From the NCBI GenBank assembly GCA_022071945.1, contig JAJVIN010000051.1, positions 20,528 to 84,527 of the forward strand: a stretch of 64,000 nucleotides of DNA, given 5' to 3'. The position numbers and the translations under genes were made by a program. Numbering within the stretch: position 1 is the stretch's first letter; each line of letters starts with the position of its first letter. The notes under the pieces are model-generated. The model was given only the letters and a program-made list of their open reading frames with translations. It did no database searches and was not told the origin of the DNA. Source of the stretch: Thermoanaerobaculia bacterium (lineage in GTDB: Bacteria; Acidobacteriota; Thermoanaerobaculia; UBA5066). Positions 16,701 through 55,966 of the stretch are shown in pieces.

Positions 16701-17153
16701 TCAGGGCTCCGGGCGGGCAAGCTTGACGATCTGGGCTTCATCCGCCTCGAGAAGGCGGGTCAGGTCGAGGAGCACCCGGTCCTCTCCCCCTGCTCGGACG
16801 GCGCCCGAAAGGAGCCCCTTCATGGCGTTCGGCAGTCCGGCCGGGTCCGGGGAGTCGCACGTCTCCGCGGCGAGGATTCCGTCGATCTCCGAGACGGCGA
16901 GCGCCGCGGGGACGCCCCCGAAGCTGCCCGCGAGAAGATAACGGAGCTCGTCCGCGTCTCCTCTCGAGAAGAGCCGGGCCGCCACGTCCACGACGGCGAG
17001 AACCCGGGAGCGGTACCTCACGAGACCGATGATGTGCTCCGGGGCCGCGGGCGCGGGGAGGAGTTCCTCCATCGGGAGGATCCGCTCGACCTCCTCCGTC
17101 CACGCCGCGGCGCGGATCTTCCCGGCGCGAAAGGCGACCACCTTTCCGGTCAT
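16701..17153 (-). CDS. CheW-like chemotaxis coupling protein
   Basis: The 150-residue product has the CheW fold, which links chemoreceptors to the CheA kinase. Visible features are [21 protein letters not shown], matching the family's GxxxxRGxxxPVIDL core, and a C-terminal [14 protein letters not shown]. It overlaps the upstream chemoreceptor gene by four bases, so receptor and coupler are made from one mRNA and probably form a dedicated pair. No cheA, cheR or cheB is in the window. Confidence 0.85.
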
Positions 17154-18883
17154 GCGGGCCTCAGGGTGGCGTTGCCGGTCCGGAATCGTCCGACCTCGTC
17201 CTCGAGGGTCGCGGCGAGAGTCTCGAGCGCCGCGGCCGCGTCCTCGACCGAGGCCGCCGACTCGAGCGTCTCGCGATGAGCGGCTGCGACCTCACCAAGG
17301 ACGGCCTTCAGGCGCTGCCCCTCGACCGCCTGCTGGTTGACGGCCGCCTGGATCTCGTGAATGAGGGCGAGCGATCTCTCGGCCGCGGTCGAGATCTGGC
17401 TCGCCGCGCTCTTCTGCTCGTGGACGGTCCTCTCGACAAAGCCGGAGAGGTCGTTGACGGAGACGACGAGGCCACGGATTCGTTCGACCTCGCTCGCGTT
17501 CTTGCGTCCCTGGGCCGCCAGGGATTCGAAGTTCTGCCTCACCTTGCCGATCGAGGCGGTCGTGCCGTTGAGCGCGACCGTTTGTTCCGTGGCGACCTGG
17601 TGGATCGCCGCCGCTGCGGACTCCGCCTGGCGGGCGGCGGTTTCAATGGCCTGCAACGAGAGGGAGGCCTTGTCCGCCGTGGCGAGTCCCACTTGGACGA
17701 GGCGAGTCTGCTCCTCGGCCGCCATCCGGGCCGCGTCGATCTCCTCGCGGATGCCCCCGATCAGCTCGGCGATTCCCCTCGCGCCCCCCTCGGTCCGCTC
17801 GGAGAGCTTTCGGATCTCGCCCGCCACGACCGAGAAGCCCCGGCCGTGCTCCCCTGCCCGGCCCGCCAGGAGCGACGCGTTGAGGGCCAGAAGATTCGTC
17901 TGCCGGGCGACCTCCTCGATCACGGTCAGGATCCGGCCGATCTCGCGCGAGCGGCTGTCGAGCCTCACGACGATGTCGCGCAGCGATTCCGCCGATTCCC
18001 GGATCTCGGTGACGGAGCCGTGCATCTCGGAGATGACGCCCGTCCCCGCCGTCCCCTGGGTCGCCACCCGGGCCGCCTGGGCCCTGGCCTCCATGGCCGA
18101 GGCCGCCACGAGGGAGAGGGACTCCTGGTTCTTCTGCGAGGCCGTCGTCAGCTCGTCGGCCCAGATCGCGAGGCCAGACAGGGTGGAGTCGAGGACGGAG
18201 GCGCCCTCGACGAGGGAAGCCACGGCCAGGGCCCCCTCGTTCGCGGCCTGGTGGAGGCCCTCCGTCCGTGTCAGGAGGTGCGTCAGGGACCGGTCGACCT
18301 GAGAAACCGCCACCGCCGTCTCCTCCGAGCCGCTCGAGAGGTTCTCGACGCTCTCGGCGATCCCCGACAGGGCCGTGTCGAAGCTCTGGACCGCCCGGGA
18401 GGCGGTGTCGATCCGTCCGAGGGCGACGTTGGCTCGCTCACGCGTCTGGATGGAGGACGTCCGGAGGATCGCGATCAGGCGATTGAGCTGCCCCTGCTCT
18501 CTCCTGATCGACATGAGCAGCTGGGAGGCACTCGACCCAACGGCGTTCAGGAGACGCCCCAGCGCCCCGGACATTCCGGTCGTCTCGGGAGCCCGTGCCC
18601 AGAGGTCGCCTTCCGCCATGTGCCTTGCCGTCTCGAACGCGCGGGCCATCTTGCCGGCCGGCCTCTGGGCCAGGACCGTGATGAAGCCTCCGGCGAGAAG
18701 GGCCAGGATGAACGAGGCCAGGAGCCCGTAATCGAAAGTCCTCGTGAAGATGAGGGAAGGGCTCAATCCATGGCTTGCCCACGCGGCCGCAAAGGACCCG
18801 GCGGCGCCGGAAAAGAAGACGAGCAGCGCTGCCGCTAGAGCTCCGGGAAAGACGAGCCGGTCCGGTTCCTGGATGGAGACCAT
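17150..18883 (-). CDS. Methyl-accepting chemotaxis protein with minimal outer domain
   Basis: The 577-residue product has two membrane segments near the N-terminus (about residues 11-36 and 52-72) separated by only some 15 residues, so there is no periplasmic sensor domain. A HAMP-like linker and a long helical signalling domain follow. The conserved hairpin tip is present as [19 protein letters not shown] followed by [18 protein letters not shown] (around residue 330). It may sense membrane state or partner proteins rather than a periplasmic ligand. It is co-transcribed with the CheW-like gene. Confidence 0.9.
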
Positions 18884-41853: not shown

Positions 41854-43305
41854 ATGAGAGCCGACGACAGAGACCCAGTACCTCCAGCCGATCCCGGGGA
41901 ACCTTTCTCGCCGGCCCCTCTCCACGGTCTCGTCACCCGGCACATCGAATCCCTCGGCGAGCGCTTCTTTTTCCACGAGGGCACCTGGAACGGGGCCGAG
42001 ACTCTCCTCGATCCATCGCGGCGCTGGGAAGAGACTCTCGGCTCCACGCTCGTCCCGGGCGACCGGATCCTCGTGGCGGCCCGGCCGGCCCCGGCGGTCC
42101 TCTCCCTCCTGCTCGCCGCGATGAAGCAGGGCCTGACGATCGCTCTGGCGGGCGAGAGAGAGGACCTCTCGCTCCTGGCGGGCGAGGTCGATGCCCGCGC
42201 CGTGTTCGCGGATCACGACCCTCTGTTCGCGATCGCCTCCGAACGGGCCGGTTCGCGAGACCGCCCGGTTTTCCAGACGCGGGAGTCCCGGTTTCCGCCC
42301 TCCCCGCGGGCGCGTTTTCTGATCCGGACGTCGGGGACCTCCGGGGGCGCTCGCTGGGTTGCCCTCTCGGAGAGAAACGTCGTGGCGGTTCTCGAAAGCC
42401 ACGTTCCGCGCCTCGGCCTTCAGGGCGGGACTGTCCTCTCCTCGCTCCCGTGGGCACACTCCTTCGGGCTCGTCCTCGAGCTTCTCGCGGGGCTTTCGGG
42501 CGGAGCGCGGATCGTCCGGGCCCCCGATTTCGGGCGCGATCCCGAGACTCTCATCGAGCTCGCCGCCTCCCATCCCGTGACTCACTTCAACGCCGTTCCC
42601 CTGGCGATCGAGCGCCTGGCGGGGCGGCCGGGGGGACGGGCCTTCCTGGCGAAGCTACAAGGCGGGATCGTCGGCGGCGCGCCCATCACGCCCCGGGTCG
42701 CCAGGGTCCTTTCGGGCACGCGCCTCTGCGCCGGGTATGGACAGACCGAGGCCTCGCCGGGGATCGCTCTCGGGGATCCGGGAGAGTTCTCTCCGAACTG
42801 GCTGGGCCGGCCCGCCGGCTGCGAGGCCTGGATAGGTCCCGGCGGTGTTCTCACCTTCAGGGGCGACAACGCGTGCCTGGGTACCTGGGACCCTTCTCTG
42901 GGGCTTCGTCTTCTCGACCCTGGCCGCTCTGTCCCGACGGGAGACCTGGCACGTTCCGAGCGGGGAGGCTTCGTCTTCGAAGGCCGTGCCGCTGCCTCGT
43001 TCAAGCTCGCGAATGGACGCTTCGTCGAAGCCGCCCGGATCGAGCAGAGTCTGATCTCTCGTGGCGGCGCCCAGGCCGCGCTCCTGCGCTCGAGAGACGG
43101 ACGATCGCTCGAGCTCATCCTCACGACCGGGGACGGCCGGACTCCCCCTGCCGAGACGCTCGCCGCCTGCCTCGGGCCGCTCATGTCCCTGCCACTCACC
43201 CTCTCGATGGTCGACGGCGCCTTCTGGATCCGGACGAGAAAGGGCGAGATCGACAGAATGAAACTGAAAATGCTTGACGCATCCACAATGAAGCCCGCCG
43301 CGTAG
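41854..43305 (+). CDS. AMP-forming acyl/aryl-CoA ligase-like protein (ANL superfamily)
   Basis: The 483-residue product activates a carboxylic acid with ATP. The A3 loop is RTSGTSGGARWVALS, the A5 motif GYGQTEAS, the A7 motif VPTGDLARSE, and the catalytic lysine region RTRKGEIDRMK. It is shorter than typical CoA ligases (500-550), mainly at the N-terminus. The acid it uses is unknown. In known photoactive yellow protein loci a p-coumarate:CoA ligase sits beside pyp, and a PYP-like gene lies 1.3 kb downstream here, so an aromatic acid is a reasonable guess. Two genes downstream on the same strand may be co-regulated. Confidence 0.85.
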   Translation: MRADDRDPVPPADPGEPFSPAPLHGLVTRHIESLGERFFFHEGTWNGAETLLDPSRRWEETLGSTLVPGDRILVAARPAPAVLSLLLAAMKQGLTIALAGEREDLSLLAGEVDARAVFADHDPLFAIASERAGSRDRPVFQTRESRFPPSPRARFLIRTSGTSGGARWVALSERNVVAVLESHVPRLGLQGGTVLSSLPWAHSFGLVLELLAGLSGGARIVRAPDFGRDPETLIELAASHPVTHFNAVPLAIERLAGRPGGRAFLAKLQGGIVGGAPITPRVARVLSGTRLCAGYGQTEASPGIALGDPGEFSPNWLGRPAGCEAWIGPGGVLTFRGDNACLGTWDPSLGLRLLDPGRSVPTGDLARSERGGFVFEGRAAASFKLANGRFVEAARIEQSLISRGGAQAALLRSRDGRSLELILTTGDGRTPPAETLAACLGPLMSLPLTLSMVDGAFWIRTRKGEIDRMKLKMLDASTMKPAA

Positions 43306-43340
43306 AGAGGGAGCCTGCGGGCCGTCCCTCCAAAAGGAAC

Positions 43341-43369
43341 TCGACGTGAAACTCCGAGGCTCACGTCGA
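43341..43369. promoter_or_regulatory. Palindrome before the receiver/DUF4388 gene
   Basis: TCGACGTGA and TCACGTCGA form a perfect 9-bp inverted repeat spaced by 11 bases, 32 bp before GTG 43401. The spacing suits a regulator operator or a small RNA hairpin. No matching second copy was seen. Confidence 0.35.
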
Positions 43370-43400
43370 TCGGACAGCTCAGAAACGGTGTGCGGGAACT

Positions 43401-44552
43401 GTGTCTGGAGAACTCATCGTCCTGACGGGCGCCGATGACGGCGTGCGAGATCAGATCGCGGCCGCCCTCCACGGCGAGGGCTACAAGGTCTTCAACGTCC
43501 CTTCCGAGGAAGCCGCCGTGGCCTCGCTCGGTGTGATGAATCTCGTGTCTCCCGACCTGGTGCTGACGGCACTCCAGGGCGAGGGGACGCCTCCGCTCGT
43601 GGCTCACTTGCGGGCGAATCCTTTGACGGAAGACGTCCCGATCCTCCTCTTTGCGAACGGCACTCACGAGGAACGCCGGCGGGCGCTGCGGCTCGGGATC
43701 CTCGACCTTCTCCAGAGGCCCTACGACCCGGAAGACGTACTGCTGATGGTCCGCCTCGCCCTGGAGCGAAGCCGGGAGAAGCGCCGCTCGGGCCAGGGCC
43801 TCAGAGGGACGCTCTCGATGCTCCCGCTCGCGGAACTCCTCCAATCGCTGGAAGCGGGCCGTCGGAGCTGCCTCGTGGAGCTTTCCGACCGGGGCCGCAC
43901 CGCCACGTTGTGGGTCCGCGAGGGACGCGTCATCGAGGCCGAGTCGAGCGACGGACGCCGGGGCGAGGAGGCCGTTTACGCGCTCTTCCTGTGGAGCGAG
44001 GGCACCTTCACCGTCACGTACGGTCCGGTCCTCGTCCCGGAGAAGATCAACGTCTCCACCACCGGACTCCTCCTGGAGGCGGCAAGGAGAGCGGACGAGG
44101 AGTCGCAGGCCGGTCAGCAGCCGCCGTTCGCTTCGATCCCCGATCCCCCGCCGGCTCCCCCCGTCGAGTTGATGGCCGCCCACAGGGCCGTGACTCTCCT
44201 GAACATCTCGAGCGCGTACGCCGCGAACCTCATCCAGCCGTCGATGCTCGCCTCTGCCCTGGAGGAATCACGCCAGAAGAGCATCGCCGGCGGGCACTCC
44301 ATCCTCGACGCCTTCGAGGTCCTCGAGGGCGGGCAGATCTCCATCCGGGGCCCCGCTTCATCTGTCGAGGAAGCCTCCAGGCTGATCTCCGGGGCGGCGA
44401 AGTGGCTGCTCGATTTCTTCGCCCGGATGAACCGTGCTTTCCCGGGGCACTTCGAACCTTCCCGGCTCGTTTCACTCTCCGAGGCCGTCCGCGACGACAT
44501 GGAATCGCTCGGCTTCTATTCCGCCCTGGGACTGTCCGGCAAGGACGCGTAA
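43401..44552 (+). CDS. Receiver-like domain plus DUF4388 (PATAN) regulator
   Basis: The 383-residue product begins with a receiver-like domain (LIVLTGADDGVRDQIAAAL; VSPDLVLTALQ with an Asp at the phosphorylation strand; late RPYDPEDVLLMVRLAL) that lacks the normal acidic pair at its start. A DUF4388/PATAN domain follows (about 135-225: GTLSMLPLAELLQSLEAGRR, LWVREGRVIEAES, LWSEGTFTVTYG), used in gliding and output signalling in Myxococcota and cyanobacteria. The C-terminal third is a helical domain I do not recognise. GTG 43401 has only a weak ribosome-binding site. It leads into the PYP-like gene 22 bp on. Confidence 0.75.
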   Translation: MSGELIVLTGADDGVRDQIAAALHGEGYKVFNVPSEEAAVASLGVMNLVSPDLVLTALQGEGTPPLVAHLRANPLTEDVPILLFANGTHEERRRALRLGILDLLQRPYDPEDVLLMVRLALERSREKRRSGQGLRGTLSMLPLAELLQSLEAGRRSCLVELSDRGRTATLWVREGRVIEAESSDGRRGEEAVYALFLWSEGTFTVTYGPVLVPEKINVSTTGLLLEAARRADEESQAGQQPPFASIPDPPPAPPVELMAAHRAVTLLNISSAYAANLIQPSMLASALEESRQKSIAGGHSILDAFEVLEGGQISIRGPASSVEEASRLISGAAKWLLDFFARMNRAFPGHFEPSRLVSLSEAVRDDMESLGFYSALGLSGKDA

Positions 44553-44574
44553 GACCGACATGGAGGATTCATTG

Positions 44575-45552
44575 ATGACCGACCTCTCGCGCCTTTCGCC
44601 CGCGGAGATCGACGCCCTGCCCTTCGGCTTCATCGGCCTCTCCCGCGAGGGGACGATCCGGAAATACAACCGCTATGAGGCCGACCTCGCCCGGATGAAC
44701 CCCGAACGGGTCCTCGGGAAGAACTTCTTCCGTGAGGTCGCTCCCTGCACCCAGGTGAAGGAATTCGAGGGGCGCTTTCGGGACTTCGCCTCGGGGGAGA
44801 TCGCCGATCCGGCGCTCTCGTTCGAGTTCGTCTTCTCGTTCCGCCACGGGGCGCAGCGCGTCAGGATCGGCCTCGTCAAGAGCCCGCTGCCCGACGAGAT
44901 CATCGTCACGGTCAACCGGGTTCTGAATGTCGACCTCCCGCTGTCGGCCGAGATCCGCCACGACCCCGCGCGCCAGCTCTTGCTCGACTCTTCAGACCAG
45001 CGGGTCGTCGCCCTCGGTGGCGACTTCTGGCGGGCCCTCGACCGCGGGCTCGGCGGCATGCCCTCGCAGGCCCGCGCGGACACCCTGCGGCTGGCTGGAT
45101 TCGACTGGGGCATCAACCACGCCCTCAGGGTCGAGGCCCTGGTCCAGAAGACCCACAAGCTCGCCCTGCGCGAGACGGAGCTCTACGTCGCCCTCGAGTA
45201 CCTGTCAGGATCGATCGGCGTTCTCGGCATGGGCCGCTTCGAGCTCGACCTCTCCCACCGCAAGCGCGGCCTGATGGTCGTCCATCACTTCGACAGCCCG
45301 CTCGTTACGGCCAGCGAGGGAAACGGGAGCTGCTGCGCTCTCCTCGAGGGCCTCCATGCGGGACTCCTGAGCCATCTCGCGGGCCGGTCGCTCACCGCGC
45401 GCGAGGTCACCTGCAGCCGCAACCCGAAGGAACCCTGCCGGTTCATCGCGGGAACCCCTTCCCGCCTCGAGAAGCTCTTCCACCCCACCCCGGGATCCTC
45501 CGACGCGGACCTCCTCGCGTCGTTCGGCGTCACCCCTCCGGTGCAGGGATGA
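44575..45552 (+). CDS. Photoactive-yellow-protein-like PAS domain fused to V4R
   Basis: The 325-residue product opens with a PAS domain whose sequence follows photoactive yellow protein (PYP): LPFGFIGLSREGTIRKYN, then GKNFFREVAPCTQVKEF. PYP's chromophore cysteine (C69) aligns with C58, its Tyr42 with Y31 and its Glu46 with E35; Thr50 is an alanine. Binding of p-coumaric acid is therefore possible. The second half (about 150-310) is a V4R domain (SCCALLEGLHAGLLSHLAG; EVTCSRNPKEPCRFI), a small-molecule-binding domain. ATG 44575 is preferred to 44560 because GGAGG at 44562-44566 serves it. Its role is probably sensory, acting through the receiver/DUF4388 protein upstream or the small gene downstream. 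Confidence 0.85.
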   Translation: MTDLSRLSPAEIDALPFGFIGLSREGTIRKYNRYEADLARMNPERVLGKNFFREVAPCTQVKEFEGRFRDFASGEIADPALSFEFVFSFRHGAQRVRIGLVKSPLPDEIIVTVNRVLNVDLPLSAEIRHDPARQLLLDSSDQRVVALGGDFWRALDRGLGGMPSQARADTLRLAGFDWGINHALRVEALVQKTHKLALRETELYVALEYLSGSIGVLGMGRFELDLSHRKRGLMVVHHFDSPLVTASEGNGSCCALLEGLHAGLLSHLAGRSLTAREVTCSRNPKEPCRFIAGTPSRLEKLFHPTPGSSDADLLASFGVTPPVQG

Positions 45553-45752
45553 AAGACGAGAGGAGGAGCTCACGTCCCGTCGCGGATGAGATGGAGGCCG
45601 TCGCCTGGGGCTACGACCCAGACGACGACTTCATCTCGCCCCTCATCAAGACCGCGTCCTTCTTCAAGACGATGCCGTGGGAGGGAGAAGAGGACCCCGG
45701 GAGGCCGCTCACTCGCGGCCCCCGGGAAGAGGACAGCGAGAAGAGCGGGTGA
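45549..45752 (+). CDS. Small acidic protein overlapping the PYP-like gene
   Basis: The 67-residue product starts in ATGA shared with the stop of the PYP-like gene, so it is translationally coupled. It has VAWGYDPDDDFISPLIKTASFFK and an acidic tail, with no recognisable domain. The coupling suggests a partner of the PYP-V4R protein. It converges with the coiled-coil gene. Confidence 0.5.
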   Translation: MKDERRSSRPVADEMEAVAWGYDPDDDFISPLIKTASFFKTMPWEGEEDPGRPLTRGPREEDSEKSG

Positions 45753-47271: not shown

Positions 47272-49125
47272 CTAGGCTCCTCCCAGCTGCCTCAACTCCT
47301 CCGTCGTCACGAGGGGCGACTGCAGACGTTCCGGCTCGCCCGTCACGAGGAGAAAGAGGTCCCCGCGCCCCGCGAGATGCTCCGCGCCCCGGCGGTCGAG
47401 GATGATGGACGACTCTCGCCAGTCGGTGACCCGAAACGCCACCCTGCCCGTCAGATTCGCCTTGATCGTGCCCGTCACGACCGACTTCGACGGACGCTGA
47501 GTGGCGAAGACCAGGTGGATCCCCGAGGCCCGCGCCTTCCCCGCCAGCCGCGAGAGCCGCATCTCGACGTGCTGTCTCATCCTCGCGCTGACGGCCACCA
47601 GATCGAAGAACTCGTCGCACACGCAGACGATTCGGGGGTAGGGCGCCTTCCCGATCCGTTCCTCGAGCTCGCCGGTCTCGCTGACTCCCTCTTCCGAGAG
47701 GATCCGGAAACGGGCCTCCATCTCCTGGATCAGCTCGTCGAGGATCTCGAGGACGGGCGTGTCCTCGGGGTGGACGACGGGCCGCTCCAGAAACGCGGAC
47801 CCCTCCAGGCACCCGAACGCTGTCCGCTTCGGATCGATCAGCACGAGCTTGAGGGTCTCGGGAGTGTTTGCCGAAAGAAGGCTCGCGACGATCGACCGCA
47901 GCCACTCGCTCTTGCCGCTCCCGCTCGTCCCCGCGACCAAGAAGTGCGCGCTCTCGGGCGCGGCGAGGTCGACCCATCGGAGCCGCCCGTCGACGGCCAC
48001 CCCCGCGGGGAACTTCGAGACCGAGAACGGCGAGCGCGCCGGCAGGAAACGCTCGAGGTCGCGCCACCAGACCGGCTGCGGATCGGTCCGGGGCAGGTCG
48101 ATGGCCACCTCGCCCTTGACGATCGAGTACTGCGCCCTGAAGTTGAGCTTCAGGGCAAGCCAGAGGTTCTCCGTGACCTTTCTGATCTGGGCCTCGTTGA
48201 CTCCCTTTCCCGCCGTCGCCAGGAGTCTGATGTGGGAAGGCCCGGCGAGGATCTCGGGCGAGAACTTGAGGGGAACTGAGGCTCCCTCGTACAAGCGCCG
48301 GACTTGATGACGCAGGTCCTCCCAGGCCGGCGGCACCGGGAAGACCAGCCGCTCGTCGGACGTCGACACGGGGCTCGCATCCGCGACTCCAGCCAGGGCC
48401 CCGATCAGGTCCTTAAGCCTCCCTTCGAGCTCCGCCAGCTGAGCCGCCCGGTAGACGGCCTCGTGCCGCTCGCCGCCGAAGTGGATCAGGACGACATCGG
48501 GCTCCGGGCCGAGCTGCCGTCGCGGCCCCCGTCCCCCGAGCGCGAGCCTGTAGAGCGCGGCCTGACAGAGATCCAGCTCCGGTACTCCCGCGCCGAGCTT
48601 GATCTCGCCGACACAGAGATTTCCCGTCACGGGATTACGGAACAGCGCGTCTATTCTCCCCTTCAAGAGAACGCTCACCTTCCAGCCCGGCTCGTGGATC
48701 TCCCGCTCGACCTCCCGTTCGTGGTCCTGGAAGATCTCGCTCCTGAACTCCTCGAGAGTCCGCCCCGGGGCACGATCGGCATCCGACAGGGCCACGATCC
48801 AGCCGCAGAGGCTCTCGACGGCCCTCCAGAACTCGAGAACCGCCGCCCCCTGACCGGAGAGCATCTGCCGGTTGGCGAGGAGCAGAGGCGCCACCAGAAG
48901 CCGGTAGGCGTGCGCCCGGAGGCCGCTCGTCATGTCCGCAAGCGACGCGCTCGCATCCCCGAGCGGCCGCACGAAGTTGAGTGCCGGGTCGGATCCGGTG
49001 AGCTTGCCGAAGATCTCGTGGAACGCCTGCCCCAGAAACGGCGTGACCGGGGACTCGGGCCGGCTCACGGGCAAGACCCTGTGGAGATTCCGGCGGATCT
49101 CGGAAATGGAGAGGATCCGGCTCAT
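47272..49125 (-). CDS. PD-(D/E)xK nuclease-FtsK/SpoIIIE ATPase fusion
   Basis: The 617-residue product joins an N-terminal RecB/Cas4-type nuclease domain (FLGQAFHEIFG with H36; GRIDALF with D159; GEIKLG with E174 and K176; QAALYRL with Q188) to a C-terminal FtsK-type DNA-pumping motor. The motor has Walker A GTSGSGKS (400-407), Walker B VCVCDEF (501-507) and GIHLVFATQRPS then IKANLTGRVAFRV, which is typical FtsK. It lacks FtsK membrane helices and the gamma DNA-reading domain. The gene starts two bases after the AAA+ gene stop. A motor that both moves along DNA and cuts it fits defence or repair. Confidence 0.85.
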   Translation of the reverse strand: MSRILSISEIRRNLHRVLPVSRPESPVTPFLGQAFHEIFGKLTGSDPALNFVRPLGDASASLADMTSGLRAHAYRLLVAPLLLANRQMLSGQGAAVLEFWRAVESLCGWIVALSDADRAPGRTLEEFRSEIFQDHEREVEREIHEPGWKVSVLLKGRIDALFRNPVTGNLCVGEIKLGAGVPELDLCQAALYRLALGGRGPRRQLGPEPDVVLIHFGGERHEAVYRAAQLAELEGRLKDLIGALAGVADASPVSTSDERLVFPVPPAWEDLRHQVRRLYEGASVPLKFSPEILAGPSHIRLLATAGKGVNEAQIRKVTENLWLALKLNFRAQYSIVKGEVAIDLPRTDPQPVWWRDLERFLPARSPFSVSKFPAGVAVDGRLRWVDLAAPESAHFLVAGTSGSGKSEWLRSIVASLLSANTPETLKLVLIDPKRTAFGCLEGSAFLERPVVHPEDTPVLEILDELIQEMEARFRILSEEGVSETGELEERIGKAPYPRIVCVCDEFFDLVAVSARMRQHVEMRLSRLAGKARASGIHLVFATQRPSKSVVTGTIKANLTGRVAFRVTDWRESSIILDRRGAEHLAGRGDLFLLVTGEPERLQSPLVTTEELRQLGGA

Positions 49126-49126
49126 C

Positions 49127-51088
49127 TCACGCCTCCGTCACCGAGGAAGGCCTCAAGAAGACCACCCCTGGCACGCCGCCGATGAGGGCCGCGGGGGCGG
49201 ACGGATCAGCCAGGAGCCGTTCGAGATCGGCCTTCGCGATCCCCGTTTCCCGGGTCACGGTTTCGAGATCCAGGAGGAACCGTCCCTCCAGGAGTTCCAG
49301 CAAGGGCTCGAAGTCGGGCCGGGGCCCGGTCGTCTCCCCTTCCGGGAGGAGGGTCGAGAGCGCGGACTCGAGGGCCTCGGGACAGCCGGCCGCCAGCCAC
49401 TTCTTCAGGTCTTCCACCTCGATCGGCTTCTCGCCGTCCGAGAGGTCTCCCGACGCCGCGGAATCCAGGAGCCTCTTGGCCGCAAGGAGCGCGGAGCGGG
49501 CCGCGGAGTCGATCCACGTGAAGGAGTGGCCGGCCTTCTGCAGGGCGGAGAGCTCCTCGCGGACGACCCTCGCCGTCTTCTTGAGAGGCAGGCGCTCGTC
49601 ACGCGCCAGGACGAGCGCGCCGCGCGACGTGTCCGGGTAGCTCTTGTGGATCCGCTTCAACCTCGCGGCGAGGCTCGTCAAGTTCTGCTCGGTCAGAAAG
49701 CCCACGCGCGTCGTCCTGCCGCCGGAGGTGGTCTCGACGTCCAGGTCGGAACGCTCCAGGATCCTGGCGGACCGCTCCGATAGCGAGGGCGTCACCATGA
49801 GGGCCTTGACGAGGGCATCCGAAAGCACCCCTCGCTCCGGCGAAGGCGATGAGGAGTGGGTCTGATCCTCCAGCACGTCCTCCCAGACATCGGAGAGGGT
49901 TCGCGGTTCCGGACGATGTTCCTCGCGGCCGCACTGGACCTCGAACTGGAGGCGGGCCGCATCGATGATGTCGCGGATGGCCCTCCCGCCGAGGTGAACC
50001 ATCTCCCTCACGCTTCGCTCGTTCAGGGGCCAGAGCGGGTCGGTGATCTCGAGGTAGAAGCGGGCCGTTTGCAGGTCGTCGTGACGCCTCATCCGCTCTT
50101 TCAGGAGCAGCGCGATCTCGTTTCTGTCCCGGATCAGCTGGAGAGCCGCCTGGTCATGAGCGAGACGGTCGAAGTCCGCTTTCCTGACACTCGCCTGCAG
50201 GTCGGGGACGAAGGACACCTGTGAACACGAGATGACGAGGAGGCTCGGAATGGACGAGATGAGGGTCGCCACCATCCCGCCGTAGACCTCGAGCTGGTCT
50301 CGCACTTCCCTCCTCGGCAGGAGACCCTCCAGCTGGTCGAACGCCAGGACGTCGACGGAGCTCCCTGGAGACAGGGACAGGAGGGCCCGAATCACCCCCA
50401 GCGCCTCTTCCTCCGTCTCGATATTCGCGGGGATCCCCAGACCCGCGAGCCCGTCCTCGGGAACGGACCGGGCCGAGAGCCACTGGAATGCCGGGGTCCG
50501 GTGGTGCCTCGCCAGGAGGTGCTCGATGGCACGGACGACGTTGGCATCCAGGCCGAGCTCGAACGCGATCTCCTCGAACGACTCGGAAAGATACGAAAAC
50601 AGAGCGGCCCCGGGACTCACCTCGCCGGTCAGCGACGCCCAGAAGCTCGCGATCTCGGCCCTCGCCGCGGGTTTCCTCTGCCGCTTCTTCTCGAAGAGCA
50701 GCCCGGCCGCGGAGGCCTCGAGCTGCGTCAGCCCCGCCTCGTCTCGCTGCTGCAGGTCGTAGGCCAGCTGGGCGAGCAGGTGGCGCACCATCCGGTCCGG
50801 CGCCGACGAGGGCCTGATGAAGGCGAAGAGCCCGGCCGGCTGGGACAGGACATGAGTTCTGAGCCGGTGAAGGATGTGAGTCTTTCCGCTCCCCCGCTCG
50901 CCGTAGACGAGGAGGCCCGACGAGATCCTCGTCTCGCGGACGCGCTCGATCGCCCTGAGGATTCTCTCGAAGACGGTCCGGTTGATCTCGGCGATGTCGA
51001 GGAGGCCCGCGGCCCAGGCACTGTCCACCCGGTTCTCGTCGAACGGGTTGCGAAGCACTTCGAGAAGCTGCTCCCGGGAGTTCCTCAT
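49127..51088 (-). CDS. Large AAA+/STAND-like ATPase
   Basis: The 653-residue product has Walker A GERGSGKT (63-70) in an ORC/Cdc6- or STAND-like P-loop domain, Walker B as VDVLAFDQLEGL (about 240-250) and a sensor strand LLVISCSQVSF. Its middle and C-terminal parts are helical with winged-helix-like stretches (TRETGIAKADLERLLADPSAP) that I cannot assign. It reads like the ATP-driven sensor/loader of the operon. It lies four bases after the winged-helix gene. Confidence 0.75.
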   Translation of the reverse strand: MRNSREQLLEVLRNPFDENRVDSAWAAGLLDIAEINRTVFERILRAIERVRETRISSGLLVYGERGSGKTHILHRLRTHVLSQPAGLFAFIRPSSAPDRMVRHLLAQLAYDLQQRDEAGLTQLEASAAGLLFEKKRQRKPAARAEIASFWASLTGEVSPGAALFSYLSESFEEIAFELGLDANVVRAIEHLLARHHRTPAFQWLSARSVPEDGLAGLGIPANIETEEEALGVIRALLSLSPGSSVDVLAFDQLEGLLPRREVRDQLEVYGGMVATLISSIPSLLVISCSQVSFVPDLQASVRKADFDRLAHDQAALQLIRDRNEIALLLKERMRRHDDLQTARFYLEITDPLWPLNERSVREMVHLGGRAIRDIIDAARLQFEVQCGREEHRPEPRTLSDVWEDVLEDQTHSSSPSPERGVLSDALVKALMVTPSLSERSARILERSDLDVETTSGGRTTRVGFLTEQNLTSLAARLKRIHKSYPDTSRGALVLARDERLPLKKTARVVREELSALQKAGHSFTWIDSAARSALLAAKRLLDSAASGDLSDGEKPIEVEDLKKWLAAGCPEALESALSTLLPEGETTGPRPDFEPLLELLEGRFLLDLETVTRETGIAKADLERLLADPSAPAALIGGVPGVVFLRPSSVTEA

Positions 51089-51092
51089 CCGG

Positions 51093-51932
51093 CTACATCC
51101 TGAGTCCGGCGGCGATGAAGTAGCTCCCGCGGCCGTTCGGGATCAGGCCTTCTCTCTCTTCATCGGTCAGGTCGGACGGTCTGTCGTGCGACTGGAGCTG
51201 GATCGTCCCTTCCTCCGCGAGGGCGAGAACGGCCTCGTCGAAGGCCTTCTTGTCCGGGCAGAGCGGCCTCGCCGCCTCCCGCCAGTCCCGGATGAAGACG
51301 AGCGCCCCTCCCGAAACCTGCGGGTTCACCTCAGTGAGGAACCTGATCAGCCGGTCCGGCACCGGTTTCTCGTGGCTCGGGCCTGGCGGCGTGCCGGCCG
51401 TCAAGATCGCGCCGAATCGAACGAACGCTTCCGCCACGCCCTCCTTCCCGAAGAGCTCCAGAAAGGGAGCCACGACTCTCCGCAGCGCGGGTTCGAGGTA
51501 GTCGAGGGGATCAGGAGGGGCGAGCCCGACGGCGAGCGGCCGCCCCTTTGCTTTCGGGTGCTCGAAGACCTTTCCACTCGCGACGAGGGGCGCCAGGATC
51601 GCGTCGAGGACGGGCCGCGCGGGCCGGGGCAGCTTTGCCCTCAGGGTGAGCCGCGGGAGCGGGCTCTTCGCCCGGAGAAGGCTCAACACCTCCTCGGTCA
51701 TCGAATCGAGAAAAACCGTCAAGGCGAGGAGGTTCCCGGGCCAGGGGTGGATGCGACCCTCTGCGAGCAAGGACGACACGGCCCTGTCGAGCTCTGGCCG
51801 GCGCTTTTTCTGGACCTTCAGGGCACGCGCCAGTTCGCGGATCGACAGCGCCTGGCCCGACCTTCCCAAGAGGTCGAGGACCGCTTCCGTAAGCGGCCGT
51901 TCTTCCTGAGTCGATTCCCTCTCCGTGTCCAT
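51093..51932 (-). CDS. Winged-helix-containing protein, first gene of the nuclease-FtsK operon
   Basis: The 279-residue product contains a clear winged-helix segment early (LTEAVLDLLGRSGQALSIRELA and VQKKRRPELDRAVSSLL) and a second helical half with no family I know (VNPQVSGGALVFIRDWREAARPL). GGGAGG five bases before ATG 51932 decides the start; an in-frame GTG 52019 would read through an 18-bp tandem repeat. It may regulate the operon or bind DNA ends for the downstream ATPases. Confidence 0.7.
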   Translation of the reverse strand: MDTERESTQEERPLTEAVLDLLGRSGQALSIRELARALKVQKKRRPELDRAVSSLLAEGRIHPWPGNLLALTVFLDSMTEEVLSLLRAKSPLPRLTLRAKLPRPARPVLDAILAPLVASGKVFEHPKAKGRPLAVGLAPPDPLDYLEPALRRVVAPFLELFGKEGVAEAFVRFGAILTAGTPPGPSHEKPVPDRLIRFLTEVNPQVSGGALVFIRDWREAARPLCPDKKAFDEAVLALAEEGTIQLQSHDRPSDLTDEEREGLIPNGRGSYFIAAGLRM

Positions 51933-51984
51933 CCGAACCTCCCGATCCCGTCGCGGCGGTCTTTCATTATCGCGAGATGAGGTC

Positions 51985-52035
51985 TTCCGCGCGCCAACCA
52001 CGGCTGGCGCGCCAATCACGGCTGGCGCGCCGCCG
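51985..52035. repeat. 18-bp tandem repeat in a divergent promoter region
   Basis: GCGCGCCAACCACGGCTG is followed by GCGCGCCAATCACGGCTG and a third partial GCGCGCC. It lies between the divergent winged-helix gene and the kinase-receptor gene, a place for regulator binding. The function is unknown. Confidence 0.55.
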
Positions 52036-52075
52036 CGTTGACCCCGCCTTGTCCCCGGCGCAACATGGCTCCCCG

Positions 52076-55000
52076 ATGAGGCGAGAACTCCGAAAGGCGA
52101 AGAGGATGGCGGCCGCGGGGCTCGCCTTCTTTCTCGCGCCCGCCGTTGTCGCTCCCGAGGCCCGCGCGCTCGATCCGACGCGGGCCCCCACCCAGTACGT
52201 CCAGGACGTTTGGACCCAGAGAGACGGGCTCCCCCAGAACTCCGCCAACGCCATTCTCCAGACCCGGGACGGCTACCTGTGGATCGGAACCGAGGAAGGG
52301 CTCGTTCGCTTCGATGGCGTCCGCTTCACCGTCTTCGACAAGCGGAACACACCCGCCATCCGCAACAACTTCATCATGGCCCTCGCGGAGGACTCCGAGG
52401 GGGCCCTCTGGATCGGGACATTCGGCGGGGGCCTCGTCCGGCTCCGCGACGGCGCCTTCGAGAGCTTCGGGGATGACGTCACCGGCCAGCGGATCCGGAC
52501 CCTGTACCGGGACTCGAAGGGAGCGATCTGGATCTCGACGGGAGGGGGCGGGCTGAGCCGCTATCAGAACGGGACGTTCACGAAGTGGAGGGTCAAGGAC
52601 GGCCTCGGGTCCGACCGTGTCTGGTCGGTCGTGGAGGACGGGAAGGGGGGAATCCTCGTTGGGACCTACGGGGGCGGGCTCCAGCGGTTCGAAAACGGAG
52701 CTTTTTCTCGAATCGAGCTCGGCCCCAGGCCCGAGAGCAGCCTCATCCGGCCCCTCCGGGCCGACCGGGAGGGGAACATCTGGATCGGGACGGACGGCGG
52801 CGGACTTTACCGGCTGAAGGACGGCGTGGTGACCGCTTTCGACAGCACCAACGGGCTGCCCAATCCCTTCATCCGCGACCTCTGGGTGGACCGCGACGGG
52901 AACCTCTGGATCGCAACCGACGGCGCCGGGGTGTTCCGCCACAGCAACGGGACCTTCTCACCGTTCTCGACCCGGCACGGCCTGTCGAACGACTTCACGC
53001 TCTCGCTGTTCGAGGATGAGGAGGCAAGCCTGTGGATCGGGACGTCCGGAGGCGGCCTCTTCAGGCTCCGGGACGGCGCCTTCACGAACATCACGACGCG
53101 GGACGGCCTGGCCAGCGACGTCGTCCGCTCGGTTCTCGAGAGCCGCGACGGCTCTCTCTGGATCGGCACGACGGGGGGCGGCGTGACCCGGATCACGAAT
53201 GGAGAGCCGGTCACCCTTCGCGCCGCGGACGGGCTCGCGAGTGATCTCGTCTTCTCTCTCCACGAAGACGAGAAGGGCCAGATCTGGATCGGAACCGACG
53301 GCGCCGGGGTGAACGTCCTGTCGGGCAAGACGATCAAGAAGCTCACGACCCGGGACGGACTCATCAACGACCGCGTCCGGACGATAACCGGGGACCGGTC
53401 GGGCACCCTCTGGTTCGGGACGACCAATTTCCTTTCCCGGTTCGCGAATGGACGGTTCGAGTCCTTCACCCAGGACGACGGCGTTCCCGGCAGCAGCATC
53501 CGGAGCCTCATCCCGGCCCGCGACGGCGGGATCTGGATCGGCTCGGACGGAGGGGGCATTGCCCATCTGAAGGACGGGGTCTTCACGGTCTGGAAGACGG
53601 CGGACGGACTCTCGAGCAGCCGCGTCTTCTGTCTTTTCGAGGACGAGCGCGGTGTCTTGTGGGCCGGAACGTCCGGCGGCGGGCTGAACCGCATCGCCGG
53701 CCGGAAGGCCGTCCCGATCACGACGAAGGACGGCCTCTACGACGACGTCGTCTTCTCCATCGTCGAGGACGATGCCGGCTGGCTCTGGATGACGTGCAAC
53801 AAGGGGGTCTTCCGAGTCTTGCGGCAGGAGCTCGACGACGTCGCCGCGAAGAAGATCCCGGCCGTGCGCTCTTCTTCCTTCGGAACGGCCGACGGGATGC
53901 GCAGCGCGGAGTGCAACGGCGGCTCCCCCGCTGCCTGGAAAGCGAAGGATGGACGGCTCTACTTTTCGACCATCCTCGGCCTCACGTCGATCGACCCCAA
54001 GAGATTCCGGACGAACGAGCGTCCGCCACCGGTTCGAATCGAAGGCCTCGTCGTCGACAAGGAAAGCCTGCGTCCCGAGAACGGGATGGTCATTCCGCCC
54101 GGCGGGGAGCAGTTCGAGTTCCACTACACCGCCCTGAGCTTCCTCGTGCCCGAACGCGTCCGCTTCCGCTACAAGCTCGAGGGCTTCGACCGGAACTGGA
54201 TAGACGCCGGCACCCGAAGAACCGCCTACTACACGAATCTGCCGCCCGGCGGCTACACGTTCCGGGTGAGGGCCTGCAACAACGACGGTGTCTGGAACGA
54301 GACGGGTGCGACGCTCTCGCTGACCCTGACGCCGTTCTTCTACCAGACCCGATGGTTCCTCTTCACGTGTGTGGCCGCGGCTCTCCTCTCGGCCTTCGGA
54401 GCGTTCCGGCTGAGACTCCAGGGGCTGAAGAGAAGGGAGCGGGACCTGGAACGCCTCGTCTCCGAGAGGACGAGCCAGCTCGAGGAGCGGACGAGCGCTC
54501 TCTCGAGAGCTCAGGAGCAGCTCGAGAAACTGTCGAACACCTCCGCCAGCGTCCTCGAGGACCCGGCCGCGTGGGCCCGGTCGGTCGCCAGGGAGATGGC
54601 GCGGTCGATCGGCGCGAAGGAGATCGGCGTCTGGGTCGTCGAGGGCAACAGCTTCGTCCCCCTCGCCTCCAGCACGTTGAAGACCCCCGACTGGGCCCTC
54701 TTGCAGAAGGCCCAGAAGAGCGACGGCTTTCTTCGGGAGGTCTCGGGTTCCGTCGTTCCCGTTCTCGGCATGACGGGCGAACCCCGCGGGATCCTCGTCG
54801 TCGACGGCCCGGATGTCGTCTGGGGGGACGTGCAGAAGAGGATCGTCTCGAACCTGGCGCGCCACCTCGGGACCGCCCTCGATCTCCGCTCACTCCGGGA
54901 ACGGCTGGCCACGTCCGAAAACCAGCGGGCGGCGAGCCGCCAGCAAATGCACCAGAAGGGCATCCAGCTGGCGGCCTTCTGCCACACCTGTCACCGCGTC

Positions 55001-55966
55001 TTCGAGGATGGCGTCACGCGCTGCGCCGTCGACGGGACTCCCCTCGACTGGTCCCGGCTCTTCCCGCTGGTCCTGGGGGGCCGGTACCGCCTCCTGCGGG
55101 TTCTGGGCGAGGGCGGGATGGGGATGGTCCTGCGCGCCCGCGACGAGCGCCTCCACAGAGAGGTGGCGGTGAAGGTGATCCGCTCCGAGCACCTGCGCGA
55201 CGTCAGCGTCCGGCTCCGGTTCGAGAGAGAGGCGCGTCTCATCGCCCACATCCAGCACCCCGGCGTGGTCGCGGTCTTCGACAGCGGCGAGCTCGAGGAC
55301 GGCTCGGGCTTCCTCGTCATGGAAGACCTCAAGGGACTCAACCTCGCCGACCTCATCAGACATCACGGACCCGGGACGCCCCGGCAGGTCGCCCTCCTGA
55401 TTCGCCAGACGGGGGAGGCTCTCTTCGAGGCGCACCGGGCGGGCGTGGTCCATCGCGACATCAAGCCCCCCAACATCTTCCTCGTCCCGGCTCCCCAGGG
55501 CTTTCAGGCCAAGCTCCTCGACTTTGGAATCGCCAAGTCCTCCGAACCCGACAGCCAGCTCACCCGGACGGGAATGATCGTCGGCACGCCCGCCTACATG
55601 GCTCCCGAACAGGTCACGGGCGAGAACGTCGATGCCCGTTCGGACCTCTACTCGTTCGCCACCGTGGCGTACGAGGCACTCACCGGCAGGGCGATGGTTC
55701 GCGCCATCGACGTCGCCCGCATCTTCTTCGAGGTCCTCCACAACGAGCCGGAACCGCCCTCGGCCCTCGTCGAAGGCCTCGGCCCCGATGTGGACAGGGT
55801 CTTCGCCCTTGCCCTGAAGAAGCGGCCCGACGAGCGTCCCGGCGACGTCCTGACATGGGTCAACCAGGCGGTCAGCGCTCTGGCGGACCTTCCAGCACCT
55901 CCGGGAAACACCGGCTGGCCGGACCCCCTGCCTCTCGCCACCCGGGCCGACGGACCGGCGACCTGA
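52076..55966 (+). CDS. Secreted-sensor Ser/Thr kinase: two-component-type propeller, Y_Y_Y, TM, GAF-like, protein kinase
   Basis: The 1296-residue product has a signal peptide (KRMAAAGLAFFLAPAVV), about a dozen propeller repeats of the two-component-regulator type (LWIGTxGGGLxR; residues about 45-640), a Y_Y_Y-type domain (about 690-755), one membrane helix (about 760-780), a coiled coil and a GAF-like domain (about 785-950), a zinc-ribbon-like CHTCH...CAVDG (about 968-987) and a Ser/Thr kinase with K1033, HRDIKPPN (1126-1133) and DFGIAKS (from 1149), all active-looking. Propeller/Y_Y_Y sensors usually end in a histidine kinase; here the output is a Hanks-type kinase. ATG 52076 and ATG 52106 are both possible starts. 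Confidence 0.9.
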   Translation: MRRELRKAKRMAAAGLAFFLAPAVVAPEARALDPTRAPTQYVQDVWTQRDGLPQNSANAILQTRDGYLWIGTEEGLVRFDGVRFTVFDKRNTPAIRNNFIMALAEDSEGALWIGTFGGGLVRLRDGAFESFGDDVTGQRIRTLYRDSKGAIWISTGGGGLSRYQNGTFTKWRVKDGLGSDRVWSVVEDGKGGILVGTYGGGLQRFENGAFSRIELGPRPESSLIRPLRADREGNIWIGTDGGGLYRLKDGVVTAFDSTNGLPNPFIRDLWVDRDGNLWIATDGAGVFRHSNGTFSPFSTRHGLSNDFTLSLFEDEEASLWIGTSGGGLFRLRDGAFTNITTRDGLASDVVRSVLESRDGSLWIGTTGGGVTRITNGEPVTLRAADGLASDLVFSLHEDEKGQIWIGTDGAGVNVLSGKTIKKLTTRDGLINDRVRTITGDRSGTLWFGTTNFLSRFANGRFESFTQDDGVPGSSIRSLIPARDGGIWIGSDGGGIAHLKDGVFTVWKTADGLSSSRVFCLFEDERGVLWAGTSGGGLNRIAGRKAVPITTKDGLYDDVVFSIVEDDAGWLWMTCNKGVFRVLRQELDDVAAKKIPAVRSSSFGTADGMRSAECNGGSPAAWKAKDGRLYFSTILGLTSIDPKRFRTNERPPPVRIEGLVVDKESLRPENGMVIPPGGEQFEFHYTALSFLVPERVRFRYKLEGFDRNWIDAGTRRTAYYTNLPPGGYTFRVRACNNDGVWNETGATLSLTLTPFFYQTRWFLFTCVAAALLSAFGAFRLRLQGLKRRERDLERLVSERTSQLEERTSALSRAQEQLEKLSNTSASVLEDPAAWARSVAREMARSIGAKEIGVWVVEGNSFVPLASSTLKTPDWALLQKAQKSDGFLREVSGSVVPVLGMTGEPRGILVVDGPDVVWGDVQKRIVSNLARHLGTALDLRSLRERLATSENQRAASRQQMHQKGIQLAAFCHTCHRVFEDGVTRCAVDGTPLDWSRLFPLVLGGRYRLLRVLGEGGMGMVLRARDERLHREVAVKVIRSEHLRDVSVRLRFEREARLIAHIQHPGVVAVFDSGELEDGSGFLVMEDLKGLNLADLIRHHGPGTPRQVALLIRQTGEALFEAHRAGVVHRDIKPPNIFLVPAPQGFQAKLLDFGIAKSSEPDSQLTRTGMIVGTPAYMAPEQVTGENVDARSDLYSFATVAYEALTGRAMVRAIDVARIFFEVLHNEPEPPSALVEGLGPDVDRVFALALKKRPDERPGDVLTWVNQAVSALADLPAPPGNTGWPDPLPLATRADGPAT

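Follow-up and report, generated by a model that had tools for sequence, protein, structure and literature searches.

Here we describe a compact gene module in a 64,000-nucleotide stretch of Thermoanaerobaculia (Acidobacteriota) DNA (the window), which we interpret, with a probability of about 0.6, as a three-protein blue-light-responsive signalling module made up of a PYP-V4R protein, a pseudo-receiver-PATAN protein and a small protein bearing a pair of tryptophan motifs. At the level of sequence, this interpretation draws on an intact PYP pocket, a V4R fold with its zinc ligands, a pseudo-receiver, the co-conservation of the module and natural fusions between its parts. The 2025 survey of PYP proteins (PMC12826048) counts the relay of their signal among the gaps still to be filled, and the fusions and strict co-occurrence reported below name two directly testable partner proteins, the first candidate for a PYP-V4R relay.

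Three closely packed genes on the forward strand span window positions 43401-45752 in the order receiver-DUF4388, PYP-V4R and small gene, with a gap of 22 nt between the first two and an overlap of 4 nt (ATGA) between the PYP-V4R stop and the small gene. An earlier note on this DNA had described these three together with an AMP-forming ligase; all four genes were recovered at the coordinates below, and Pfam and NCBIfam matches agree with their domain calls. The features of the locus are as follows.

41854-43305, + strand: AMP-binding ligase P0002 (PF00501; no class ortholog), a neighbour probably outside the module
43341-43369, no strand: inverted repeat TCGACGTGA-N11-TCACGTCGA, between ligase and module
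43401-44552, + strand: P0003, 383 aa, pseudo-receiver, DUF4388 (PATAN-like) and helical C-terminal domain (DUF4388 match, PhoB-structure match, fusions)
43569-43571, + strand: Ala57 codon, at the site of the receiver phospho-acceptor (phmmer alignment to PhoB)
44575-45552, + strand: putative PYP-V4R photosensor gene (P0001), 325 aa from ATG 44575 (domain matches, Shine-Dalgarno, relatives' starts)
44578-44922, + strand: PYP domain, P0001 residues 7-121 (TIGR02373, VIA-align)
44665-44748, + strand: chromophore residues Tyr36 (44665-44667), Glu40 (44677-44679) and Cys63 (44746-44748), kept in 5/5 unfused homologues
44923-45483, + strand: helical segment and V4R domain, P0001 residues 122-308 (DmpR/MopR/PoxR fold; zinc ligands C259, E282, C285, C293)
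45549-45752, + strand: small two-tryptophan-motif protein P0004, 67 aa (no family; homologue downstream of PAS-V4R in relatives)

Residue numbers of P0001 follow the translation read from 44560, but ATG 44575 is the more likely start, being preceded at 8 nt by a GGAGG Shine-Dalgarno sequence and agreeing with the starts of relatives. When the entire genome was scanned with the PYP family model, no second PYP copy came up. The inverted repeat is a possible operator or boundary; it occurs once in the genome, and on this ground a genome-wide regulon built around it was rejected.

We take the PAS domain of P0001 to be a real PYP, and reject a chance PAS domain, on the strength of its sequence and predicted structure. 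It matches TIGR02373 (photo_yellow) with E 4e-28 and 97.9 bits, short of the 143.05-bit cut-off of what is a strict equivalog model and not the literature definition of the PYP family; comparison with solved PYP/Ppr gave E 1e-21, and the AF2 model superposes on 1mzu and 2phy with Z of about 18 and rmsd of 1.7-2.0 (VIA-align). The claim that the Cys, Tyr and Glu of PYP are present at the chromophore site holds in full and extends to the rest of the pocket: Y36, E40 and C63 of P0001 correspond to PYP Y42, E46 and C69, Cys63 sits in a chromophore loop, EVAPCTQ, bearing the APC(T) motif of PYP Cys69, and 9/9 pocket residues are present (I25, Y36, E40, F56, V60, A61, P62, C63 and F92, for PYP I31, Y42, E46, F62, V66, A67, P68, C69 and F96, a list taken from PMC12826048). 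Fold and chromophore pocket are as in Halorhodospira halophila PYP and Rhodospirillum centenum Ppr. Whereas H. halophila PYP has Thr50 and Met100, the window PYP has Ala50 and His100, both common to 5/5 unfused homologues; Ala50 is the consensus of the PYP family, and absorption at 435-465 nm is given for four PYPs that have it (PMC12826048). Pigment formation would then be expected, with the PYP domain binding p-coumaric acid via Cys63 and passing through a PYP-type photocycle.

The second half of P0001 was confirmed as the V4R domain proposed for it, and it has the fold of an aromatic sensor: the predicted structure of residues 120-327 aligns with the phenol sensors DmpR, MopR and PoxR at Z of about 15 (VIA-align), and the Pfam V4R match (30.6 bits) falls just below the cut-off of 31. 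In a profile alignment C259, E282, C285 and C293 are in register with the C-E-C-C residues of MopR, which we take to be its zinc ligands, and these four positions are invariant across 14 homologues. Of the two phenol-contacting MopR residues, His106 and Trp134, the former is not kept at the aligned position, where Ser/Gly stands, in an alignment that is weak in the pocket. Although fold and zinc ligands are the same, the window V4R differs from DmpR, MopR and PoxR in lying C-terminal to a PYP domain and in being without AAA+ or DNA-binding domains. Such a zinc-stabilised DmpR/MopR-fold domain would dimerise and may also take up a small ligand of hydrophobic or phenolic nature, and PYP-V4R may in this way combine light with a chemical cue.

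Full-length PAS-V4R proteins of this kind occur in 14 of 149 genomes of the class, the named relatives in the class being Thermoanaerobaculales and Holophagales MAGs; an alignment-based search for related loci among genome contigs gave only three, each of which was reached through these genomes as well. P0004 has no family match in Pfam/NCBIfam profile searches, and a homologue with two W motifs (W[DE]Y followed by FFxxFPWE) is encoded directly 3' of the PAS-V4R gene in 13/13 loci checked, against a background of about 1 in 190 other genes tested; together with the spread of PAS-V4R over 14 genomes, this places the module beyond chance. In the fourteenth genome (G070), outside the 13/13 count, a similar protein of 85 aa is encoded at a later point in the cluster, and no W-motif protein was found beside the other DUF4388 genes of the window's genome. 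We regard the small gene as a conserved component not described before. The V4R domain, the DUF4388 regulator and the small gene had all been put forward as new companions of PYP; the conservation of the latter two makes them meaningful companions, but the V4R fusion is already known (PMC12826048).

In nine genomes the receiver-DUF4388 and PAS-V4R proteins are joined in a single polypeptide, about 700 aa long and co-linear with the two window proteins, and in the remaining 5/14 they are separate but adjacent. Such natural fusions argue strongly for a joint action of the two proteins. The conservation of the chromophore-site cysteine, which the earlier note had named among the tests of its reading, divides along the same line: Tyr, Glu and Cys are kept in all five unfused proteins (five genomes, four families; about 49-56% identical to that of the window), and in 9/9 fused proteins the Cys is lost and Glu46 is replaced by Gly. 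A tree built from the V4R half unites the nine fused proteins in one clade (97/97) and places the Cys-bearing protein of G070 next to it as sister, with moderate support (84/86). Read most simply, light sensing came first and disappeared when the fusion arose, a direction of change that we only infer, since the root of the tree is weak. Where checked, fused forms stand in chemotaxis clusters, as at locus L012 with MCP, CheA, CheW, CheY and CheB, and CheA is on the same contig as the fused form in G048, G051 and G126.

These fused relatives also suggest a different account, in our judgement an improbable one, by which the PYP domain of the window protein would be a relic or apo form without chromophore and the protein mainly a chemical sensor acting through V4R, presumably as they are. 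They retain V4R with its zinc ligands in every case despite the loss of Cys and Glu46, and neither a TAL nor a credible adjoining p-coumarate ligase was identified for the window protein; on the other hand, a whole pocket kept in five such diverged unfused proteins is not expected without use, and TAL is missing from most pyp operons anyway, being present in 7 of 113 (PMC12826048). We keep to a light-responsive PYP-V4R, for which the Cys-less fused relatives offer a natural control of light dependence.

PYP-V4R fusions were published in December 2025 by Dohmen et al. (PMC12826048), with 20 cases and no apparent relay domain; like the window protein they have an N-terminal PYP with Cys69 and a C-terminal V4R. 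The suggestion that the window encodes a blue-light or aromatic-acid sensor of a new kind thus survives in its intact blue-light site and its V4R of aromatic-sensor fold, but not in its novelty. What the present locus adds to that account, whose main text does not mention DUF4388, is the pseudo-receiver-PATAN partner, together with the small protein and fused forms that lack the Cys. To our knowledge these, the natural fusions with their loss of the chromophore site, and the gas-vesicle association described below are undescribed. Other arrangements of PYP were also seen in the class. Two genomes encode an EAL protein with a C-terminal PYP domain (L014:5818-6999 and L016:5545-6681), PYP being at the N-terminus in published GGDEF/EAL-PYP proteins. 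An operon in G006, of the same family (L015:4201-9569), holds a V4R protein in its own right, a pair of PYPs that both have the Cys, an ORF resembling the C-terminal domain of P0003, a weak match to Roadblock/LC7 and an EAL protein. PYP-V4R on plasmids was considered and dropped, as only PYP without V4R was found there.

The partner protein P0003 contains a DUF4388 domain (Pfam E 2e-22, 79.8 bits) preceded by a receiver that scores 21.2 bits, below the Pfam cut-off, and matches PhoB structures in fold. PhoB Asp53 aligns with Ala57 of P0003 (phmmer), marking the receiver as degenerate, and relatives have Gln, Glu or Pro at this site, with Asp in none in which the receiver domain is present. Signalling should therefore bypass phosphorylation; moreover, neither G101 (99% complete) nor G100 (82% complete) yielded a CheA, and the unfused module in these genomes therefore has to do without one. 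The receiver fold also matches FrzS of Myxococcus (2i6f), which lacks DUF4388, PYP and V4R, and whose receiver works without phosphorylation in surface motility. For the C-terminal helical domain no fold match was found, the Foldseek matches listed covering the receiver only. The literature searched held nothing relevant on DUF4388, which, following InterPro naming, is probably the PATAN domain of the cyanobacterial motility regulators PixE and PixG; a DUF4388 match in a Synechococcus control was used in support.

The same idea of a cytoplasmic blue-light sensor with a receiver-PATAN partner is embodied in PixD-PixE of Synechocystis (PMC7690835). In the window module PYP-V4R replaces BLUF and the receiver lacks a phospho-acceptor, and P0003 differs from PixE in its order, receiver then DUF4388, and in its extra helical domain. 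With PixE-PixD binding as the model, the pseudo-receiver-PATAN protein, not phosphorylatable at the usual site, would bind PYP-V4R and directly read its state, and the small two-tryptophan-motif protein would dock on one or the other of them. A more far-reaching proposal, which we advance tentatively and consider somewhat less probable than its opposite, is that these proteins make up a light-signalling complex of a new, phosphorylation-independent class, a pseudo-receiver-PATAN effector and a tryptophan-motif peptide both being gated by PYP-V4R. The same scaffold would have become a light-blind sensor in one lineage, through fusion and loss of the chromophore site, and been recruited to gas-vesicle control in another.

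Regarding output, PixE, the PATAN protein bound by the BLUF photoreceptor PixD, reportedly binds in its turn to PilB1, the pilus motor (PMC7690835, PMC5812497). PilT-family ATPases were present in 8/8 genomes tested. This precedent, the PATAN assignment and the presence of PilT make pilus motility the leading candidate; the likely output is control of motility by type IV pili, or of some other function at the cell surface, with no phosphorelay involved. No pilus or motility genes lie within the window module. MCP and CheW genes stand side by side at window 16701-18883, 26 kb from it.

The unfused module of G070 has a different setting. There PYP-V4R and receiver-DUF4388 head a gas-vesicle cluster (L055:8611-18282) that further includes a V4R-like protein without zinc ligands, ParA, a small double-W protein, a possible Hsp20-like protein, a CDC48-type AAA, GvpL/F, GvpA and a GvpN-like AAA. 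The module might accordingly regulate ParA- or gas-vesicle-type cell organisation, light setting buoyancy or organelle positioning and not pili, a view to which the pairs of V4R proteins found together with ParA and CDC48 in G196 would also lend themselves. We think this unlikely as a general account, because GvpA was detected in just one of the eight genomes tested, that of G070 itself, and as the output in the window's genome gas vesicles were discarded, GvpA not being found there with G070 as positive control. Pilus motility remains our preferred output for the window module, and its leading a gas-vesicle cluster elsewhere suggests that it may act as a plug-in that supplies light input to different outputs. 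In the G196 stretch (L099:7085-13245) the genes for two V4R proteins precede those for a ParA-type ATPase and an AAA ATPase of CDC48 type, as in the G070 cluster, and no Gvp genes were noticed in it; the literature searched contained nothing relevant on V4R with gas vesicles.

The locus departs from the classical pyp-pCL-TAL operon, there being no TAL beside the window pyp; in contrast to H. halophila PYP/Ppr, the module is without both TAL and pCL. The ligase P0002 is a divergent enzyme (PF00501, E 3e-26, 92.6 bits) and on sequence grounds probably lies outside the module. That it should activate p-coumarate or another aromatic acid for PYP, ligase and sensor forming one functional operon, is favoured by their common strand, the 95-nt gap between them and the pCL genes found in 42 of 113 pyp operons (PMC12826048), but we judge it the least probable of the alternatives raised here. 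No ortholog was found at E<=1e-30 in the 149 class genomes, a motif scan revealed no AMP-binding gene beside PAS-V4R at the 13 relatives' loci, and BLASTP against the pyp-adjacent ligase of Caballeronia SBC2 gave no significant similarity (E 4.8). The PDB matches at E<=1e-5 included no 4-coumarate ligase structure, the C-terminal catalytic-lysine motif, by eye, reads GE for GK (KGEIDR), and the unique inverted repeat stands between ligase and module. The resemblance to the p-coumarate:CoA ligase of known pyp loci, on which the earlier note had built, is accordingly not upheld, and we continue to treat the sensor and its two partners as the module.

The tyrosine ammonia-lyase for which that note had suggested a search was likewise not identified in the genome. 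The two MIO lyases present score as histidine-type, one HutH-like (C1:95859-97250) and one a HAL-like paralogue with an unusual GACGD motif (C46:1911-3284), and neither reached the cut-off of the TAL-specific model. As TAL is rare in published pyp operons too, uptake of p-coumarate from outside is possible. The HAL-like enzyme (L101:1788-3359 on C46) carries Ala-Cys-Gly instead of the common Ala-Ser-Gly, and its Asn-His stands at the position of Ser-His in the HutH-like enzyme.

Elsewhere in the window, at 47272-55966, a row of genes on the reverse strand encodes an SspH-like FtsK/HerA ATPase, whose N-terminus may be nuclease-like, together with an AAA ATPase and a protein resembling winged-helix proteins, and is adjoined on the forward strand by the gene for a protein of 1329 aa that has a kinase domain at its C-terminus; this is perhaps a defence or DNA-processing locus.
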